This document shows, in pieces, positions 7,317 through 16,565 of a stretch of DNA of 64,000 nucleotides. The DNA comes from Meiothermus ruber DSM 1279 (GTDB taxonomy: Bacteria > Deinococcota > Deinococci > Deinococcales > Thermaceae), in assembly GCF_000024425.1 (NCBI RefSeq), contig NC_013946.1, positions 744,001 through 808,000 on the forward strand, in the 5' to 3' direction. The notes beneath the pieces were generated by a model. That model worked only from the letters and a program-made list of their open reading frames with translations, ran no database searches and was not told the origin of the DNA. The position numbers and the translations under genes are program-made. Within the stretch, counting starts at the first letter, position 1, and every line of letters begins with the position of its first letter.

Positions 7317-7347
7317 CCGATAGCGGGCAACCGCTATCGGTTTTTTT
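7317..7347 (+). terminator. Intrinsic terminator after aceA
   Basis: Perfect 10-bp stem CCGATAGCGG/CCGCTATCGG with a GCAA tetraloop and seven T. It lies 21 bases beyond the aceA stop. Confidence 0.92.
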
Positions 7348-7405
7348 GCTGCGGCCTGCTTCGGAACGGCATCAGCGACAAAGCCCAACCATCGTGGCCT
7401 TCATT

Positions 7406-9208
7406 CTAAAGCACCTGCAACCTGAAGCGCGCCGCCAGGGTCTGCTGGGCCTGGCGAATCCGCAAAAAAACCTGGCGCAGCATCTGCAGTTCGCGGGGGG
7501 TGAGGGCAGCCTGGGCCACCCGGTTGGTGGGGGGCTGGCCCTGGGACAGGGCCTGGAGCTGGTGGCGCAGGCGCAGGTGGGACAGGAACAAAAAGGCCTC
7601 GCTGAGGTCTTCCGCTTCTTCTTTGGAGATTACCCTGGCCAGCGCGGCGGCCCGCAGGCGCTCGAGGGTGGGGCGGGTCAGGCTCTGGGCCTCGAGGCCA
7701 TACACCCGCGCCAGCGCCACAATAGCGGCCAGGCCCCCTTTCTTGAGGTTGATGGTGCCCTCCTCGAAGCGGAGGCGGCCCAGCAAGCCCAGAGGCGGGG
7801 TGAAGACCAGGGCCGAGCGGGCCAGCGCGGTAAGGAAGGGCCGGTTTTGCGAGGCCCGGCGCAGGCGGTCTGTGAGGGGCTCGAGGGAAAGCCCCCCGGC
7901 TATGCTGCGAAAGTCGAGGAAGATCTGGGCTTCCAGCAGGTTCTCGCCTTCGGGGTTGGTCAGCCAATGGTCGAAGCGGGCTTCCCACTCGGCCAGGGGA
8001 AAACCCCAGCGGTCGGCCATAAAACCCCCGGGGCAGGGGGGGAGCCCCGCTTGCAACAGCCCGTCCAGCACCTGCCGGGCCAGGGCCTGAAAGTAGCCAG
8101 CGGCGCTTTGCTCCTGGTAGGCCAGGGCGTTGTCCTGGTCGGTGAGCAGGGCCTGCTCGGCGCGGCCCTCGGAGCCCAGGGCCAGCCAGGCGTAGGGGCA
8201 GGGCGGGGGGCCCAGGGCTTGCTCGGCCCGGCGGAGGAGGCTGCGGGTGAGGGCGTCGGTGAGGAGGCTCACCTGCCGGGTGATGGCCTGTACCGCGAAC
8301 CCTGCCGCCAACATCTGCTGCACGATGGCCTCGAGCTGCGGGCGGTAATCCGAAAGCGCGTGGGGGTCGTCGGCTTGCGAAAGCCGGCGCAGCAGGGCCA
8401 AAGGGGTCTGGAGCCAGCGCCGCAGGAAGGCCCGGTCGGTCAGCAGGCCCACCACCTGCTGGCCCTGGGTGAGCGGCAGGTGGTGGATGCCCTGTTGCTC
8501 CATGTAGGCCAGGGCTTCGTAGAGGGGGGTGCTGGCAGGCAGGGTTTTGGCCGGGGCGCTGGCTACGCGGGCCGCGGGGGTGCTGTAGGCGAGTTCCTCG
8601 GCCAGCACCCGGTTGCGCAGATCGCGGTCGGTAAGGATAGAGAGCCCCTGGGGCTGCTGGAGGAGCAACGCGCTCACCCCCCGCTCGCGCATGAGCCGGG
8701 CGGCCTGGGCGACGGTGGCGCCGGCCTCGAGCCAGACCGGGGCTTCGGCGGCCTCGCCGGCCGGCTGCCCCAGGTCGGGCAGGTGGAGGGCCACCGGCTG
8801 CAACAGCCGCAGCCGCTCGGCCAGCCGGGCGCTAAAGAACAGGGCAAAGCCGGGTTTTTGCAGCAGTTGGCGGAAGGCCCCTTTGCTCAGGCGCAAACAG
8901 GTGGCCTCGCCTTCGGCCCGCACCGTCAGGCTGGGGGGTTGCTGGCCCAGCAGGGAGGGGTAGCCAAAGGCCTCGCCGGGCTCGAGCCAGGCCACGGCCT
9001 GCCCGTCCTGCTCCAGCCGCACCGTGCCCTGGTAAACCACGTACAGGCCCTCGGCCTCCTTCCCGGTGGGCTCGAGGATCACTGCCCCTGGGGTAAAGCG
9101 ATGGAGGGTAAGGGCCCCCTCGAGCCCCACCCAGTCGGCCTCGGTGAGCTGATCGAAGGGGGGATACTGCCTTAAGAAGGCCCGGTAGCGAGAAAATTCC
9201 GAATCCAG
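7406..9208 (-). CDS. cNMP-binding, CBS-pair, DUF294 nucleotidyltransferase
   Basis: Predicted signalling nucleotidyltransferase of about 600 residues. Order: cyclic-nucleotide-binding domain (residues about 15-120, with GLYVVYQGTVRL and EPGEAFGYPSLLG), two CBS repeats (about 150-290, each with a LTDRDLRNR- or LTDRAFLRR-like end), then DUF294, a GlnD-like nucleotidyltransferase core with LALGSEGRAEQALLTDQDNA (metal-binding Asp residues) and a helical C-terminal domain. The first ordinary start is GTG at 9130, but the frame continues upstream with a family-like N-terminus (LDSEFSRYRAFLRQYPPFDQL). A perfect GGAGGT at 9215-9220 stands six bases before CTG at 9208-9206, so I place the start there. 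The 5' end overlaps the amidotransferase gene by 37 bp, so translation is probably coupled. Last gene of the catabolic cluster; substrate unknown. Confidence 0.85.
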   Translation of the reverse strand: MDSEFSRYRAFLRQYPPFDQLTEADWVGLEGALTLHRFTPGAVILEPTGKEAEGLYVVYQGTVRLEQDGQAVAWLEPGEAFGYPSLLGQQPPSLTVRAEGEATCLRLSKGAFRQLLQKPGFALFFSARLAERLRLLQPVALHLPDLGQPAGEAAEAPVWLEAGATVAQAARLMRERGVSALLLQQPQGLSILTDRDLRNRVLAEELAYSTPAARVASAPAKTLPASTPLYEALAYMEQQGIHHLPLTQGQQVVGLLTDRAFLRRWLQTPLALLRRLSQADDPHALSDYRPQLEAIVQQMLAAGFAVQAITRQVSLLTDALTRSLLRRAEQALGPPPCPYAWLALGSEGRAEQALLTDQDNALAYQEQSAAGYFQALARQVLDGLLQAGLPPCPGGFMADRWGFPLAEWEARFDHWLTNPEGENLLEAQIFLDFRSIAGGLSLEPLTDRLRRASQNRPFLTALARSALVFTPPLGLLGRLRFEEGTINLKKGGLAAIVALARVYGLEAQSLTRPTLERLRAAALARVISKEEAEDLSEAFLFLSHLRLRHQLQALSQGQPPTNRVAQAALTPRELQMLRQVFLRIRQAQQTLAARFRLQVL

Positions 9209-9867
9209 CCGGCCACCTCCTTGGCGCTGGGCTCCAGGGCCAAGCTGGCCCTGGCCTCGGCGTAGCGTTCCTCCCCTACCAGGTGACGCCGCTGCTCCAG
9301 GAGGGCCTCGGCGAAGGCTTTGGGGAACTCCGGGTGGGGCTGCATACCCAGCACGTTGGGGCCTATCTGGATCAGGGCATGGGGGCTGAACGCGCTCCCG
9401 CCCAGCACCACCGCCCCTGGCGGCAGCTCGGTAATCTGATCCTGGCAGGAGAGGATGAGCCGAAACTCCTCCAGGAATGGTTCCATCCAGGGGGCCCGCC
9501 GGTAGACCGAAAAACGGTGGATTCCCACCCCCCAGCCCAGGGGCCAGCGCTCCACCCGCCCGCCCAGGGCCTGCCCAATCATCTGATGGCCGAAGCAGAT
9601 CCCCACCAGCTTGCTGGGCGAGGCGGCCACGGCCCGCACGAAATCTTCCAGCGGGGGGATCCAGGGCAGGGGGTCGTAGACTGAGGCCCGCGAGCCTGTA
9701 ATCAGATAGCCCTGAAAATCCTCTACCTGGGCCGGGTACTGCCCCGCCCGCACGTCGAAGGGGGTGAGGGCCTGGCCCAGCAGCCGCTCGAACATGGCGG
9801 GGTAATCGCCGGCAATCCCGCTCAAGCCCGGCGGGGGTTCGTCGCAGACCAGTACGGCGAGTTTCAT
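9172..9867 (-). CDS. Class I glutamine amidotransferase-like hydrolase
   Basis: 231 residues with the GuaA-like amidotransferase fold as a free-standing protein. Catalytic triad visible: Cys about 91 in GICFGHQMIGQ, and His178/Glu180 in GMQPHPEFP. There is no synthetase domain, so it is not GMP synthase. Stand-alone members act on small glutamyl compounds; in the isopropylamine and polyamine gamma-glutamylation routes such a hydrolase releases glutamate from the gamma-glutamyl product. Next to a GS-like ligase, SDR and ALDH, that is the likely job here (inference). Its ATG at 9867 overlaps the ALDH stop as ATGA, and its 3' end overlaps the next gene, so it is tightly coupled on both sides. 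Confidence 0.85.
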   Translation of the reverse strand: MKLAVLVCDEPPPGLSGIAGDYPAMFERLLGQALTPFDVRAGQYPAQVEDFQGYLITGSRASVYDPLPWIPPLEDFVRAVAASPSKLVGICFGHQMIGQALGGRVERWPLGWGVGIHRFSVYRRAPWMEPFLEEFRLILSCQDQITELPPGAVVLGGSAFSPHALIQIGPNVLGMQPHPEFPKAFAEALLEQRRHLVGEERYAEARASLALEPSAKEVAGWIRNFLATGPS

Positions 9868-11252
9868 GGTTTGCGCAGGTGGTACGACTTGGGCCGGGTG
9901 AGCTGCTCGTAGCCCAGCACCGAGAGCGAGCAGCCCCGCCCGGACTCCTTGACCCCAGTCCAGGCCAGCGCCGGATCGAGGTAGTCGCAGCGGTTGAGGA
10001 AGACCGTGCCGGTCTCGAGGCCTGCCCCGAGTCGCAGGGCTGCGTCCTCGTCCTGGCTCCAGATGGAGGCGGTGAGGCCGTAGGGGGAGTCGTTCATCAG
10101 CAACAGGGCTTCTTCGTCGTTTTTGACCGGCATAATGCCCACCACCGGGCCAAAGCTCTCCTCCACCATCACCCGCATCCGGTGGTTCACGTTGACCAGC
10201 ACCTGGGGGGCCAGGTAGGGCGTGCCGGGGGCGTCGGCGGGGAAGTCCTTGGGGTTGATGAGGGCCTGGGCTCCCTGGGCGATGGCCTCGGCAATCTGGG
10301 CCCGCACGAACTCGGCGGCCTCGGTGCGCACCATGGGGCCCAGGGTGGTCTCGGGCTCGAGGGGGTTGCCCAGCCGAAGCCGCAGGGTCTCGGCCACGAA
10401 GGCCTCCACGAAAGGCTGGTAGATGGACTCGTGCACGTAGATGCGCTCCACCCCGCAGCACGACTGGCCCGAGTTGAACATGGCCCCATCCACCAGGTTG
10501 ACCGCGCTGTACTCGAGGTCGGCGTCGGGCCGCACATAGGCCGGGTCTTTGCCGCCAAGCTCGAGGGCCACCCCCTTGAAATGCCCCGCGGCGGCCCGCT
10601 CCACCGCCCGCCCCCCCGCCACCGAGCCGGTAAAGGCCACGAAGGCCACCCGCGGGTCGGCGATGGCCTGGGCGGTGAGGTCGTGGTCCATGTGCAGGTA
10701 CTGGAAGACCCCCTCCGGCAGCCCGGCCTCCTGGAAGGCCCAGGCGTAGCGCTCGGCCACCAGGGGGGTCTGGGCGGAGTGCTTGAGCAGCACCGCATTC
10801 CCGGCCAGGATGGCCGGTACGATGGTGTTGACCGAGGTCAGGTAGGGGTAGTTCCAGGGGGCCAGCACCAGCACCACCCCCAAAGGCTCCCGCCGGATGA
10901 AGCGGGTGAAGCCCGGCAGGGCCTCGGCGGGGATATCCTGCAGGGCGGCCGGGGCGATGCGGGCCATGTAGCGGGCCCGCTCGGCAAAGCCCCCCTGAAT
11001 CTCCTTGGGGCTGTAGCGGATGGGCCGGCCCATCTGCCAGGTCAGTTCCTCGGCTATTGCCTCTGTGGCCCCCAGCATGACCTCCACCATGCGGTTCACC
11101 ACGGCCAGCCGCCCGTCCAGCGGGGTCTGGGCCCAGGCTTTCTGGGCCCGGGCGGCCAGGGCCAGGGCGTGCTCGAGCTCCGCTGGCCCGGCCAGGGTTC
11201 GCTCGACGTACACGCGCCCGTCTACGGGGCTGATGGTTTTTTGAATCTGCAT
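9864..11252 (-). CDS. NAD(P)-dependent aldehyde dehydrogenase
   Basis: Oxidises an aldehyde to the acid with NAD(P). 462 residues, at the short end of the superfamily. Conserved pieces: LAPWNYPYLTS (cofactor and active-site Asn), FTGSVAGGRAV, ELGGKDP with the general-base Glu at about residue 231, SGQSCCG with the catalytic Cys at about 265, and EESFGPVVGIMPV. The ATG at 11252 with GAGTGAGG upstream is preferred to a start at 11294 that would run into the SDR gene. It lies four bases after the SDR stop and ends in an ATGA overlap with the amidotransferase. In the cluster it most likely takes the aldehyde made by the SDR; the substrate is inferred from context. Confidence 0.93.
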   Translation of the reverse strand: MQIQKTISPVDGRVYVERTLAGPAELEHALALAARAQKAWAQTPLDGRLAVVNRMVEVMLGATEAIAEELTWQMGRPIRYSPKEIQGGFAERARYMARIAPAALQDIPAEALPGFTRFIRREPLGVVLVLAPWNYPYLTSVNTIVPAILAGNAVLLKHSAQTPLVAERYAWAFQEAGLPEGVFQYLHMDHDLTAQAIADPRVAFVAFTGSVAGGRAVERAAAGHFKGVALELGGKDPAYVRPDADLEYSAVNLVDGAMFNSGQSCCGVERIYVHESIYQPFVEAFVAETLRLRLGNPLEPETTLGPMVRTEAAEFVRAQIAEAIAQGAQALINPKDFPADAPGTPYLAPQVLVNVNHRMRVMVEESFGPVVGIMPVKNDEEALLLMNDSPYGLTASIWSQDEDAALRLGAGLETGTVFLNRCDYLDPALAWTGVKESGRGCSLSVLGYEQLTRPKSYHLRKP

Positions 11253-11256
11253 GGCC

Positions 11257-12027
11257 TCACTCCGGGGTGACGTAGGCGGCGGTGATACCCCCATCCACCA
11301 GCAAAGCCGCCCCGGTCATGAACGAAGAGGCCGGGCTCGCCAGGTACAAAGCGGCCTGGGCAATCTCGGCGGCCTGGCCGAAGCGGCCCATGGGGATGTG
11401 CACCAGCCGGCGCTGGCGCTTCTCGGGGGTGTCCAGGTATTTCATCAAGAGCTCGGTCTGCAAGGGGCCCGGGCAGAGCGCATTCACCCGGATGCCCTGC
11501 CGGGCGTGGATGACCGCCAGCTCGCGGGTCATGGAGAGCACCGCCCCCTTGCTGGCGGTGTAGGCCAGTTGGGGGGTGGCGGCCCCCATAAAGGCCACAA
11601 AGGAAGCGGTGTTGATGATGCTGCCGCCCCCGGCCCGCTGCAAAGCCGGGATGCCGTACTTGCAGCCCAGGAAGACCCCCTTGACGTTGACCGCGAAGGT
11701 CAGATCCCAGACCGCCTCGCTGGTGTGGATGGCGTCGTCGTCCTCGGCGTGGGAGATGCCCGCGTTGTTAAAGAGGATCTCCAGCCGCCCAAAGACCCGT
11801 TCGGCCTCCGACACCATCCGCTGGGCATCCTCGGCCTTCGAGACATCGGCCTGCACGAAGTGGGCCTGGCCCCCCGCGCTTCGAATGGCCTCCACGGTCT
11901 CGAGGCCTTTTTCCGAGAGATCCACCGCCACCACCCTGGCCCCCTCGCGGGCAAAAAGCAGCGCGGCCTCGCGGCCAATCCCGCTGGCGGCTCCGGTAAT
12001 CAGGGCTACTTTGTCGGCTAGTTGCAT
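11257..12027 (-). CDS. Short-chain dehydrogenase/reductase (classical SDR)
   Basis: 256 residues, classical SDR. Visible: the nucleotide-binding TGAASGIG at residues 11-18 with an acidic Asp at about 36 (VVAVDLSE), suggesting NAD preference; NNAG at 87-90; catalytic Ser142, Tyr156 and Lys160 (YTASK); and a C-terminal LLVDGGITAAY. SDRs of this type commonly oxidise secondary or primary alcohols. Between a GS-like amide ligase and an aldehyde dehydrogenase it would suit oxidation of a gamma-glutamyl amino alcohol, which is inference. It begins 12 bp after the ligase stop and ends four bases before the ALDH start. Confidence 0.93.
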   Translation of the reverse strand: MQLADKVALITGAASGIGREAALLFAREGARVVAVDLSEKGLETVEAIRSAGGQAHFVQADVSKAEDAQRMVSEAERVFGRLEILFNNAGISHAEDDDAIHTSEAVWDLTFAVNVKGVFLGCKYGIPALQRAGGGSIINTASFVAFMGAATPQLAYTASKGAVLSMTRELAVIHARQGIRVNALCPGPLQTELLMKYLDTPEKRQRRLVHIPMGRFGQAAEIAQAALYLASPASSFMTGAALLVDGGITAAYVTPE

Positions 12028-12039
12028 GCAAGACCTCCC

Positions 12040-13416
12040 TCAAATCCGCTCATAATACCGCTTGCGCTCCCAGTCGGTGACGGCCCGGTTGAAGGCCTGC
12101 CACTCGCTCTTGAAAAAGTGAGTGTAGTGCTCGTGGGCCGCTTCGCCCAGGGTGGCTTTGGCAAAGGTACTCCGGGCAAACCCCTCGGCGGCCTCGCCCA
12201 GGGTGTAGGGTACTCGCGGCAGGTGGCGGGCCTGGTAGATGTCGCCCTGGAAGATGGGGGGCGGGGTGAGGCCCTGCTCCAGCCCATCGAGCCCCGAGGC
12301 CAGCGCGGCGGCCAGGGCCAGGTAGGGGTTCAGGTCGGCCCCCCCAATCCGGCACTCGATGCGCAGCGAGGCCCCCCGCCCCACCACGCGGAACCCGGCG
12401 GTGCGGTTGTCGTAGCTCCAGGCCAGCCGGGTGGGGGCCCAGGAGCCGTCCTCGTAGCGTTTGTAGCTGTTGACGGTGGGGGCGTAGAAGGGCATGAAGT
12501 CGGGGATGTGGGCAATCCAGCCAGCCAGAAACTGCCCGAAGACCTTCGAGCCCTGCACCGGTCCAAAGGCCTCCTCGCCGGCGAAGGCGTTCTGGCCGTC
12601 CTTCCAGAGCGAGAGGTGGATGTGGCAGGAAGAACCGGCCTGGCCGTGGTGGGGCTTGGCCATAAAGGTCACGGAAAGGCCCATGGACTCGGCCACCTCT
12701 TTCAGACACTGCTTGAAGAGGACGTGCCGGTCGGCCATCTCCAGGGCCTCGGCGTAGCGCAGGTTCACCTCGTGCTGGCCCAGGCCCCACTCCCCTTTGG
12801 AGTTCTCCACCGGGATGCCGGAAGCCTTCAGGTGCTGGCGCACCGCGCGGGTAAAGGGTTCCTCGCGGGTGCCTTGGAGCAGGTGGTAGTCCTCGAGGTA
12901 GTACCCGGCGGGCTCGAGCCCGGCGTACCCCTGCTGGTGGGCCTGGCGGTAGGAGACCCGGTAAAGGTAGTACTCCAGCTCCGAGGCCGCCATCACGGTG
13001 TAGCCCATGGCCCTGGCCCGCTCGAGCTGTTGTTTTAGAAGGGTGCGGGGGGCCACCCCAACCAGGCGGTGGGTGCGCTCGTCCTCGAGGTCGCACAGCA
13101 CGATGGCGCTCTTCTCGAGCCAGGTCGCAGGCCGCAGGGTGGCAAGGTCGGGCACTAAGTGAAAGTCGCCGTAGCCCAGCTCCCAGTTGGCAAAGCGGTA
13201 GCCCTGCACTGGCTCCATCTCCATGTCGGTGGTGAGCAGGTAGTCGCAGCCGTGGGTGCCGCGCTCTGCCACCTCTTCCAGAAAGTACTCAGCCTCGAAG
13301 CGCTTGCCCATCAGCCGCCCGTAGTGGTCGGGGAAGCCCACCAAAACTGTGTCAATCTCGCCGGTGCCAACCTTGGCGGCCAGCCAACTGAGATTTCTTG
13401 CGGCGTTTTCCGTCAT
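12040..13416 (-). CDS. Glutamine synthetase-like gamma-glutamylamide ligase
   Basis: 458 residues of the glutamine synthetase superfamily. Metal and substrate motifs are visible: ASELEYYLY, GEWGLGQHEVNLRYAEAL, FMAKPHHGQAGSSCHIHLS, SYKRYEDGSWAPTRLAWS and IGGADLNPYLALAA. The spacing and the HIHLS/NSYKR segments resemble the PuuA, IpuC and GlnA4 group, which join glutamate to amines (putrescine, isopropylamine, ethanolamine) with ATP, rather than housekeeping GlnA. The neighbours (amine/amino-acid permease, SDR, ALDH, hydrolase) support catabolic use. Which amine is made into a gamma-glutamylamide cannot be told from sequence; ethanolamine is favoured because of the permease type. ATG at 13416; 101 bp separate it from the permease. 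Confidence 0.88.
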   Translation of the reverse strand: MTENAARNLSWLAAKVGTGEIDTVLVGFPDHYGRLMGKRFEAEYFLEEVAERGTHGCDYLLTTDMEMEPVQGYRFANWELGYGDFHLVPDLATLRPATWLEKSAIVLCDLEDERTHRLVGVAPRTLLKQQLERARAMGYTVMAASELEYYLYRVSYRQAHQQGYAGLEPAGYYLEDYHLLQGTREEPFTRAVRQHLKASGIPVENSKGEWGLGQHEVNLRYAEALEMADRHVLFKQCLKEVAESMGLSVTFMAKPHHGQAGSSCHIHLSLWKDGQNAFAGEEAFGPVQGSKVFGQFLAGWIAHIPDFMPFYAPTVNSYKRYEDGSWAPTRLAWSYDNRTAGFRVVGRGASLRIECRIGGADLNPYLALAAALASGLDGLEQGLTPPPIFQGDIYQARHLPRVPYTLGEAAEGFARSTFAKATLGEAAHEHYTHFFKSEWQAFNRAVTDWERKRYYERI

Positions 13417-13498
13417 CTATTACCACCTCTGCGCCTGGAGGGCGCACATTTGCTGCGCTCGAGGGTCTCTTCCCACACCTTTTGGGTCATACGACAGA

Positions 13499-13515
13499 CC
13501 CGGCATCGGGCCGGG
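13499..13515 (-). other. Short hairpin between permease and ligase genes
   Basis: Dyad CCCGGC/GCCGGG with a 5-base loop, two bases beyond the permease stop codon. There is no T-run after it on the minus strand, so it is more likely an mRNA-stability or partial-attenuation hairpin than a true terminator. The 101-bp spacer shows no other clear signal. Confidence 0.35.
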
Positions 13516-13517
13516 CC

Positions 13518-14975
13518 TTAGCGAATCTCCCGCTGGGCCTCGGCAATCAGGGCGGCTTCCTCCTCGGGGGCCTGGGCCACCAGGCGGAAGCGGCTATAGA
13601 ACCAGTAGTAGGCCATCATCAGCACCACAAACACCGCCGTGCCCACCACCCCCGGCCGGTAGCTTTCCACCGCGAAGGTGGCGGCCAGGCAGACCAGGGC
13701 CAGAATGGCCCCCACCCAGGCCCCCGGCACGCCCAGCGGGCTTTTGTAGGGGCGGGGCAGGTCGGGGCGGGTGCGGGCCAGGCGGATGTAGGCAAACATC
13801 ACCATGGCGTAGGAGATCACCGCGCCGAAGACCGCCATGTTGAGCAGGGCCGCGCCCACGCTGTCCGAGAAGGTGCTGATCAGCACGCACATCAAAAAGC
13901 CCACCACCGCACCCAGAATCAGGGCGAAGTGCGGGGTGTGGTAGCGGCTCACGATGGAAAGCCCGGTCGGCAGGTAGCCGGCCCGCGAGAGGGCGAAGAT
14001 GAGCCGCCCGTAGGCGTAGATGATGGCGTGGAAGCTGGCCACCAGGCCGGTAATGGCAATCAGGGTCAGGAAGGTGCTGGTAGCGGCGTCGCCGAAGACC
14101 GCCTTGAAGCCCAGTTCCAGCGGCGCGCCCGACTCACCCACCTCCTTGGCCCCGGCCACCCCGGTGTTGAGGATGAGGGTCAGCACCGAGAGCACCAGCA
14201 GGGTGATAATGCCCAGGATGAGGGCCCGCGGCATGTCCCGCACCACGTCGTGGGACTCCTCGGCGGCCAGGGGGAGCTGCTCGATGGCCAGATAAAACCA
14301 GATGGCAAACGGCAGCGCCGCAAAGACCCCATACCAGCCAAAGGGGAGGAAGCTCGAGCCCCCTTCCTGCGGGGCGATGTTGAAGACCTTATCCCAGCTA
14401 AAGGCACCGGAGAACCCTGCCGCTACGTAAAAGACCACCAGCACCGCCAGCGCCAGCAGGGTTACGATCAGCGAGACCCGCAGGGTAAGGGCCGTACCCC
14501 GGATGTTGATGCCCACAAAGAGGGCGTAGAAGGCCGCCCACCAGATCCAGGCCGGCACGCCGGGGATCAGCGCGTTCATATATCCGGCGATGCCCACCAC
14601 GATTACTGCCGGGGTAATCACGTACTCGATCAGGTCGGTGACCCCGTTCAGGAAGGCCCAGTTGGGACCAAAGGCGCTGCGGGTAAACGAATAAAAGCCC
14701 CCCGCGTGGGGCAGTGCGGTGGAAAGCTCGGCGATGGAGAGCACCATGGTGACGTATAACACGGCCACCACCAGCGTGGCTAGCAGTAACCCGCCAAAAC
14801 CCCCGGCGGCCAGTCCGAAGTTCCAGCCGAAGAAGTCGCCCGAGATGACCGCGCCGACCCCCAGGCCCCACAAAAGCACCCAGCCCGCGCTCTTGCGCAA
14901 GCGCCGCTTCTCCAGATAGGTGTTGTCCACATCTATGTAGTGCGCCCCGCGCACCGCTTTGGGTTTGTTTTCCAT
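13518..14975 (-). CDS. Ethanolamine/amino-acid permease (APC superfamily)
   Basis: Integral membrane importer of 485 residues with about 12 hydrophobic helices. The N-terminal VISGDFFGWNFGLAAGGFGG is characteristic of the EAT (ethanolamine transporter) branch of the amino acid-polyamine-organocation superfamily. Later helices include AELSTALPHAGGFYSF and FSLAIEQLPLA-type segments with the order normal for the family. The ATG at 14975 has AGGAGG upstream; a TTG at 15023 would overlap the regulator gene. It starts 28 bp after the MocR-type regulator on the same strand and most likely brings in the amine used by the downstream ligase. Ethanolamine as substrate is a family-based inference. Confidence 0.87.
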   Translation of the reverse strand: MENKPKAVRGAHYIDVDNTYLEKRRLRKSAGWVLLWGLGVGAVISGDFFGWNFGLAAGGFGGLLLATLVVAVLYVTMVLSIAELSTALPHAGGFYSFTRSAFGPNWAFLNGVTDLIEYVITPAVIVVGIAGYMNALIPGVPAWIWWAAFYALFVGINIRGTALTLRVSLIVTLLALAVLVVFYVAAGFSGAFSWDKVFNIAPQEGGSSFLPFGWYGVFAALPFAIWFYLAIEQLPLAAEESHDVVRDMPRALILGIITLLVLSVLTLILNTGVAGAKEVGESGAPLELGFKAVFGDAATSTFLTLIAITGLVASFHAIIYAYGRLIFALSRAGYLPTGLSIVSRYHTPHFALILGAVVGFLMCVLISTFSDSVGAALLNMAVFGAVISYAMVMFAYIRLARTRPDLPRPYKSPLGVPGAWVGAILALVCLAATFAVESYRPGVVGTAVFVVLMMAYYWFYSRFRLVAQAPEEEAALIAEAQREIR

Positions 14976-15003
14976 AACAGAGCTACCTCCTAGTTCGCTT
15001 GTG

Positions 15004-16458
15004 TCAAGCCGGCTCTTGTGCAACCCGTGCCCGGATCAGTTTGGCCAGTTCTTTCACCCCCTCCTCCAGGCCCTCGGCGCTCTGAGCCCCAAAGCACAGC
15101 CGGAAGTGCATGGTCTCGTCGGTCTGCACTAAAAAAGCCTCGCCGGGGGTGATGGCCACCCCCTGGGCCAGGGCCTGATGGTGCAGCTCCAGATTGGAGA
15201 AAAGTCGGGGCAGGCTCACCCAGCAGGAGAAGCCCCCCTCTGGATGGCTCCACTCCACCCCTTTGGGCATGTAGCGGCGCAGGGATTGCAAGAGGGTATC
15301 CCGCCGCTTCTGATACAGGGGCAGTACCTGCTTGAGGTGCTGTTTCAGGCCGCCCTGGCGGATGAACCGGGCGGTGGCCCGCTGCAGGAGGGGGGGCGGG
15401 CCGGTGATGTCGGAGACGTTGTGCAGGGGAAGAAAGCGCTCGAGCAAAGCCGGCGCGGCGACCAGATAACCGATGCGCAGGCCCGGCATCAGCACCTTGG
15501 AGAGGCTGGCCAGGTGCACCACCTGGGCCTCCAGGCCCATCCGCTGGGCCAGGGCCAGGAGCGGGGTGGGCGGGGTTTTCTCGTAGGACAAGAGGCCCAG
15601 GGTGTCGTCTTCGACCAGGGTGAAGCCGTAGGTGCGGGCCAGCTCGAGCAAACCCTGTAGCCGCCCCTCCTGGAAGCGCAGCCCGGTGGGGTTGTGGTAG
15701 CTGGGGATGGTGTAGTAAAAGCGCGGGCGGTGGCGCTTGAGCAGGGCCTCGAGCACCTCGAGCCGGGGGCCTTCGGGGTTCAGGGGCACCGGCAGGGGCT
15801 TGAGGCGAAACTGCTTGAGGATGCCCAGCAGGCCCAGGTAGGTGGGCTCTTCCAGCAGCACCTCCTCGCCCGGTTCGGCCAGGGCCCGGCAGACCAGGGC
15901 CAGTCCCTGCAGACCCCCTACTGTGACCAGCACCTCCTTGGGGTCGGCCCCGATGCCCCGCTGCTCCAGCAGCTCGCTAATAGCCACCCGGAGTTCGGGC
16001 TCGCCCATCAGGGAGCCGTAGCCAAAAACCTCCTGGGCCAGGGGTTTCAGGCTATCCAGGCAGGCCCAGAACGCCGCATACGGGAACAAAGCAGGGTCGG
16101 CGGTGGCTAAGGCCAGGTTGTGCAACACCCGGGCGTGTTGCAGGCGGTGCAGGTCGGAGAGCACCGAGTCGGGCTCCAGCCGCTCGCCGAAGCTGAGCGG
16201 GACGGCAGGCCGGGCTTGCGGGCTCACAAAGGTGCCCCGCCCCACCACCGACTCGATCAGCCCGTCGGACTGTAGCTCGCGGTAGGCGTTGTGCACGGTA
16301 AGGCGGGTGGTGCCTACCTCACGGGCCAGGGCCCGCACCGTGGGCAGCCGGGTGCCGGGGGGTAGCTCGCCCTTGGCGATGCGGGTGCGGAACTCCTCGG
16401 CAATATGGCGGTACAAAGCCATATGTTTGTCATGCCGCAGCTTGACCCGCACCCCCAT
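15004..16458 (-). CDS. MocR-type (GntR-aminotransferase) transcription regulator
   Basis: 484 residues. Residues about 10-80 are a GntR winged helix (YRHIAEEFRTRIAKGELPPG, then TTRLTVHNAYRELQSDGLIE). Residues about 110-480 are a class I aminotransferase fold with the PLP lysine in HLASLSKVLMPGLRIGY, so PLP is probably bound as Schiff base. Regulators of this build (GabR, PdxR, TauR) sense amines or PLP adducts and often act on neighbouring catabolic genes. It heads the amine cluster and is followed 28 bp later by the permease. AAGGAGG precedes the ATG; a TATAAT and a dyad lie upstream. It probably regulates itself and the cluster. Confidence 0.92.
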   Translation of the reverse strand: MGVRVKLRHDKHMALYRHIAEEFRTRIAKGELPPGTRLPTVRALAREVGTTRLTVHNAYRELQSDGLIESVVGRGTFVSPQARPAVPLSFGERLEPDSVLSDLHRLQHARVLHNLALATADPALFPYAAFWACLDSLKPLAQEVFGYGSLMGEPELRVAISELLEQRGIGADPKEVLVTVGGLQGLALVCRALAEPGEEVLLEEPTYLGLLGILKQFRLKPLPVPLNPEGPRLEVLEALLKRHRPRFYYTIPSYHNPTGLRFQEGRLQGLLELARTYGFTLVEDDTLGLLSYEKTPPTPLLALAQRMGLEAQVVHLASLSKVLMPGLRIGYLVAAPALLERFLPLHNVSDITGPPPLLQRATARFIRQGGLKQHLKQVLPLYQKRRDTLLQSLRRYMPKGVEWSHPEGGFSCWVSLPRLFSNLELHHQALAQGVAITPGEAFLVQTDETMHFRLCFGAQSAEGLEEGVKELAKLIRARVAQEPA

Positions 16459-16492
16459 GCAACCTCCTTGGTGATGGAGGGCATTATATGCA

Positions 16493-16544
16493 CAGGGCTC
16501 CAGCCGGGAAAAGGTACAAGTTGCCGGATTGTGCTAGGACAATC
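16493..16544 (-). promoter_or_regulatory. Promoter and dyad upstream of the MocR-type regulator
   Basis: On the minus strand a perfect -10 TATAAT lies at 16498-16493, 34 bases before the ATG. No good -35 is seen, which suits an activated promoter. A dyad GATTGT-N6-ACAATC at 16527-16544 sits about 29-46 bases upstream of the -10 and would be a fitting operator for the regulator itself. Confidence 0.55.
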
Positions 16545-16565
16545 GGGTGGGGGGTGACGGCGCCC

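Follow-up and report, generated by a model that had tools for sequence, protein, structure and literature searches.

The use of ethanolamine through gamma-glutamylation has been described in Streptomyces, where GlnA4 of S. coelicolor makes gamma-glutamylethanolamide and is required for growth on ethanolamine (PMC6529630). The Streptomyces glnA4 cluster, described in 2019 (SCO1610-SCO1615 and relatives), encodes an SDR, an ALDH, GlnA4, a regulator, an ethanolamine transporter, and a glutamine amidotransferase (PMC6529630). The part of the route that follows the ligase step is a prediction from bioinformatic and transcriptional analysis (PMC9397018). In Phaeobacter, the enzymes of an ethanolamine gamma-glutamylation pathway are induced, and the same source cites the route for Chromohalobacter salexigens and Agrobacterium tumefaciens (PMC10132767).

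Two further pathways employ related chemistry. The Puu pathway of E. coli, which degrades putrescine, shares the logic of a ligase, an ALDH, and a hydrolase; however, it needs the amine oxidase PuuB and has no SDR. In the Ipu pathway of isopropylamine degradation, a glutamylated amino alcohol is oxidised by dehydrogenases and then hydrolysed, as is proposed here for Meiothermus, but the first oxidation of isopropylamine needs an oxygenase.

The window analysed here is a 64,000-nucleotide stretch (positions 744001-808000) of the 3,097,457-base single-contig genome of the hot-spring bacterium Meiothermus ruber DSM 1279. It contains seven minus-strand genes, running from position 16458 down to 7406, with the same list of parts as the Streptomyces glnA4 cluster (ligase, SDR, ALDH, transporter, amidotransferase, and regulator). 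The original prediction considered the steps of this route to be known separately, and the set to be, as far as it knew, undescribed in a Thermus-group bacterium. This argument for novelty fails: the Streptomyces cluster unites the same parts and the activity of GlnA4 has been shown (PMC6529630), and Phaeobacter has the same route, as cited also for Chromohalobacter and Agrobacterium (PMC10132767). Nor is the block special to the Thermus group: genes for the ligase and SDR are neighbours in 12 phyla. The pathway is established in outline elsewhere, and the Meiothermus form differs in having a ligase from a third clade, a dehydrogenase and hydrolase that are swapped between versions, and its own palindrome.

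The ligase and ALDH of Meiothermus belong to other clades than those of the Streptomyces glnA4-type, the gene order differs, and the regulator is a MocR-type protein instead of EpuRI. The amidotransferase of the glnA4-type clusters of Embleya and Nonomuraea is a C26 protein (PuuD-like), whereas that of Meiothermus is a class I GATase. The eto-type operons of Phaeobacter, Chromohalobacter, and Agrobacterium share the proposed chemistry and an orthologous-looking ALDH. However, the operons of this type examined here encode an Fe-containing alcohol dehydrogenase in place of the SDR, an N-formylglutamate amidohydrolase in place of the GATase, mostly an RpiR regulator, and a TRAP or other APC transporter. 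None of the seven Meiothermus genes encodes a PuuB-type oxidase or an oxygenase such as that of the Ipu pathway. The Meiothermus ligase is approximately 40% identical to IpuC of plasmid pTC1.

The first gene of the operon encodes the MocR-type regulator (15004-16458), which combines Pfam GntR HTH and Aminotran_1_2 (PLP aminotransferase-like) domains and retains the PLP lysine, K321, in the motif SLSK. It is followed by the genes of the APC-family ethanolamine permease (13518-14975, TIGR00908) and the GS-like gamma-glutamyl-amine ligase (12040-13416, PF00120, Gln-synt_C), a putative gamma-glutamylethanolamide synthetase. The SDR (11257-12027, PF13561, with S142, Y156, and K160) is proposed to oxidise gamma-glutamylethanolamide, and the ALDH (9864-11252, PF00171, with C265 and E231) to oxidise gamma-glutamyl-aminoacetaldehyde. 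The class I GATase-like protein (9172-9867, PF00117) has the triad C91, H178, and E180, and is a candidate gamma-glutamylglycine hydrolase. The last gene encodes a protein with cNMP-binding, CBS, and DUF294 nucleotidyltransferase-like Pfam domains (7406-9130), which is probably accessory. The catalytic residues of the SDR, ALDH, and GATase are intact, and the folds of the proteins can be assigned from sequence relatives with solved structures. The genes and families are those named in the original prediction, except that its nucleotidyltransferase is a signalling-type DUF294 protein. Its description of the genes as packed with overlaps is correct as to the tight packing, with gaps in operon order of 28, 101, 12, 4, -4, and 41 bases when the permease starts at ATG 14975. 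The overlap of the MocR and permease genes, however, comes from a longer TTG start. The likely start is ATG 14975, which is preceded by the Shine-Dalgarno sequence AGGAGGT, and the TTG start is contradicted by an in-frame stop just upstream of the equivalent ATG in a relative.

The operon was searched for in 18 Meiothermus genomes. The full order MocR-permease-ligase-SDR-ALDH-GATase-DUF294 is present in the window and in nine other genomes (L024, L025, L028-L034), and in three more (G004, G005, and G009) the operon is interrupted by a contig end and the genes that are left keep their order. The genome G002 contains a divergent form, MocR-ligase-SDR-ALDH with another permease, which is also found in Allomeiothermus. 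No such ligase was found in four of the 18 genomes (G007, G013, G015, and G017). In G017, the terminator of the isocitrate lyase gene directly adjoins the ABC-F gene, so that a 9.2 kb block is absent, comprising the seven genes and their promoter and nothing more. Unlinked genes in close relatives, which would have spoken against the original prediction, were not encountered; the linkage is kept or, in G017, the block is lost whole. The recurrence of the order in nine genomes and the loss of the entire block from one relative exceed chance grouping, and the seven genes form one unit. The neighbouring isocitrate lyase gene was dropped as a part of the operon, since it is retained in genomes that lack the operon.

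The block of close relatives that corresponds to positions 7344-16563 of the window is cleanly present or absent between the genes of isocitrate lyase and ABC-F. A plasmid version is carried by pMESIL01 of Allomeiothermus silvanus (L156 347-12531), in which a branched-chain-type ABC transporter, a cyclase-family hydrolase, and another APC permease accompany the MocR, ligase, SDR, and ALDH genes. The plasmid version is without the GATase, and its substrate may differ.

Upstream of the MocR gene, a conserved palindrome of 18 bases, GATTGTCCTAGCACAATC (16527-16544, minus strand), is followed at fixed spacing by a conserved promoter block (16483-16519, minus strand), which consists of TTGTACCTT (16511-16519) and a -10-like TATAAT (16483-16488). 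The arrangement is kept in 12 genomes, in which the flanking DNA has diverged. In a genus-wide search with the GATTGTCCTAGCACAATC pattern, every one of the 13 genomes carrying the operon had a single site (12 perfect and one with one mismatch), and the five other Meiothermus genomes had none; the reversed control pattern also gave no sites. The conservation of the palindrome suggests that it is a dedicated MocR operator, and its occurrence once per carrier genome would make MocR a local regulator of this operon alone. The distance between the TTGTAC block and TATAAT exceeds that of a normal -35 element, and the block may be a second half-site for the regulator. A simple promoter scan did not give a sigma-70 match, and no clear match to the operator motif was found in Allomeiothermus. 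MocR probably responds to ethanolamine by way of its PLP domain. A search of the accessible literature identified no paper on Meiothermus and ethanolamine, and none that joins MocR with ethanolamine in its title or abstract.

The ligase does not reach the cut-offs of the models for its characterised relatives. It scores 234.6 bits against the GlnA model (cut-off 429.15), 227 bits against the PuuA model (cut-off 650), and also falls under the cut-off of the type III GS model. According to the alignment, the metal and glutamate residues E146, E148, E209, E216, H265, and E354 are kept, D50 is missing, and the GS flap residue E327 is replaced by W326. Both D50 and E327 are GS residues required for ammonia (PMC6529630). 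With these residues lost, the other outcome that would have spoken against the original prediction, a ligase making only glutamine from ammonia, appears unlikely from the sequence. The flap position is occupied by tryptophan in this ligase as in IpuC, and by phenylalanine in the eto and GlnA4-type clades.

The ligase was placed in a tree of 115 sequences, where it falls into a clade of its own with 88 rows and a support of 100. This third clade is separate from the eto clade, which contains structure 5dm3 from C. salexigens, and from the GlnA4-like clade, composed of actinobacterial ligases in which the spacing of residues agrees with the published spacing of GlnA4. The GlnA4-type E269-G270 spacing is absent from the Meiothermus ligase, which lies inside neither the GlnA4 nor the eto subfamily. 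The trees result from a quick search, with SH-aLRT as the sole measure of support, and the deep placement of the ligase with PuuA, IpuC, and GlnA is unreliable owing to long branches. The named genomes in the third clade come from 13 phyla; many of these genomes are metagenome bins, of which single records may be misplaced. We know of no assayed member of the clade, which is apparently uncharacterised.

The gene neighbourhoods of ligase relatives were compared in 108 loci centred on the ligase, with gene content determined by homology-based calling and tblastn panels; longest-frame calling hid true genes in GC-rich loci. An SDR at least 50% identical to that of the window is located near the ligase in 76 of the 108 loci, an ALDH in about 60, and an ethanolamine-type permease in 16. 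Only some of the loci hold a recognisable transporter or hydrolase. The place of the GATase (17 loci) is taken elsewhere by C26 proteins (12), N-formylglutamate amidohydrolases (4), or cyclases (2), and two of these four families never occur at one locus. Similarly, an Fe-containing alcohol dehydrogenase is encoded in seven loci and co-occurs with the SDR in only one. Such a pattern of replacement is expected if the swapped parts perform the same steps.

The ALDH of the window belongs to a 34-row clade (support 97) together with ALDHs from operons of Paracoccus, Sinorhizobium, and Ruegeria; E. coli PuuC, the paralogues from the same genome, and the GlnA4-type ALDH fall outside it. Its identity to ALDHs of eto-type operons is 56-59%, compared to 37% for the best paralogue in its own genome. 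The SDRs encoded beside third-clade ligases group together, and the GlnA4-type SDRs form a separate branch. The genes of the alcohol and aldehyde dehydrogenases are linked to the ligase gene across phyla. The GATase, a putative gamma-glutamylglycine hydrolase, has gamma-glutamyl peptidase 1 as its nearest solved relative.

The DUF294 gene is constant in Meiothermus operons, yet among the 108 sampled loci only one, that of Meiothermus, has it at a distance of 6.5 kb or less from the ligase. It was therefore dropped from the core set, among which the original prediction had counted it although nothing supports a role. Behind an eto-type operon on plasmid 1 of Paracoccus denitrificans (L158 13367-19341) lie acs, a DUF4212/sodium symporter pair, and the gene of a DUF294 protein related (31%) to that of the window, a hint that proteins of this kind accompany the catabolism of small acids or amines. 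Plasmid pR1CP1 of Rhodococcus opacus (L165 6679-9359) carries two tandem GS-like ligases, several SDRs, an alpha/beta hydrolase, and a DUF1116 protein, and may encode another amine glutamylation route.

Ethanolamine is the best-supported amine substrate, as judged from family models and gene company. The permease, which is fixed within the operon of the genus, scores 421.5 bits against the curated TIGR00908 model of ethanolamine permeases (cut-off 381.75), an assignment by family model and not by transport assay. The permease of the GlnA4-type cluster of Embleya also belongs to TIGR00908 (481 bits). In Thermomicrobium roseum, a TIGR00908 permease adjoins a ligase and an SDR, and this ligase has the same flap tryptophan. 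The genome of M. ruber contains no match to EutB, in keeping with the suggestion that ethanolamine would be used without EutBC. A strong EutB match was found in only one of 111 Deinococcota genomes, the Meiothermus genome G007, which is without the operon. There, an APC permease gene is followed by EutB and EutC (L190 8000-11796), and this permease shares 62-74% identity with those encoded next to the ligase in Sinorhizobium and in some Deinococcota. Its position beside EutBC ties the permease family, and hence the ligase, to ethanolamine, although a single genome is an anecdote and not a statistic.

We consider it likely that the seven genes constitute a single catabolic operon under its own MocR, which enables ethanolamine to serve as a source of nitrogen, and also of carbon, without an ethanolamine ammonia-lyase or a microcompartment. 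The APC permease would import ethanolamine, and the GS-like ligase would use ATP to join it to the gamma-carboxyl of glutamate, forming gamma-glutamylethanolamide. The SDR would then convert the alcohol to an aldehyde, masked by the glutamyl group, and the ALDH would produce gamma-glutamylglycine. Hydrolysis by the class I GATase-like enzyme would yield glutamate, which may re-enter the ligase step, and glycine, usable by the glycine cleavage system of the genome. MocR would act through the palindrome that precedes the MocR gene, sensing ethanolamine via its PLP domain. This sequence of import, glutamylation, two oxidations, and hydrolysis is the one originally predicted, and it fits everything tested, its claim to novelty apart.

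The same chemistry could instead act on another small amine or amino alcohol (alaninol, isopropanolamine, propanolamine, or isopropylamine), with a shifted specificity of the permease. The ligase falls into neither of the clades whose enzymes have been tied to ethanolamine by experiment, and its flap tryptophan is that of IpuC rather than the phenylalanine of the ethanolamine-linked clades. An atrazine-degrader plasmid with ipuC has SDR, ALDH, and GATase genes nearby, and the partner permease differs between genera; the MocR-ligase-SDR-ALDH core of Allomeiothermus uses a different APC permease and is without the GATase. These observations count against ethanolamine. However, the use of an alkylamine, for instance isopropylamine, would call for a P450 or another oxygenase, which the operon lacks, the permease exceeds the ethanolamine cut-off, the T. 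roseum ligase with the same tryptophan adjoins an ethanolamine permease, and the ALDH groups with those of ethanolamine operons. We regard another substrate as unlikely, though worth keeping in mind.

A main role in amine detoxification or scavenging of glutamyl-amines, and not in growth, is improbable. In actinobacteria, routes of this type have been connected with the tolerance of amines (PMC8998196), but a dedicated permease and complete oxidation to an amino acid fit a role in nutrition, as does the presence of glycine decarboxylase in the genome. It is hardly credible that the ligase, despite its Gln-synt_C domain, is a spare glutamine synthetase with unrelated neighbours: D50 and E327 are absent, the score is below the GlnA cut-off, the genome has a separate GlnA, and the linkage to the SDR extends across 12 phyla.

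Beyond the likely ethanolamine operon of Meiothermus, the third clade could, more tentatively and with somewhat less confidence than an even call, represent an unrecognised, widespread ethanolamine route in 13 phyla, many of them uncultivated. In such a route, the ligase and SDR would be fixed, and the ALDH, hydrolase, and transporter swapped between lineages; the MocR of Meiothermus would be the first to sense ethanolamine by way of PLP, and its regulon would consist of a single site. If this is true, the use of ethanolamine without a microcompartment or a cobalamin-dependent lyase would be far commoner than the Streptomyces and roseobacter cases suggest, and would include thermophiles as well as many phyla that are uncultivated. 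Metagenomes could be screened for the route with the ligase, SDR, and ALDH as simple markers. From the Meiothermus operon, heat-stable enzymes could be obtained for a pathway of which only the first enzyme has been assayed in vitro in the cited literature, and the MocR of the operon, a regulator with one site, allows its ligand and operator to be tested directly. The losses of the operon, together with the EutBC-bearing relative, provide a natural comparison inside one genus.
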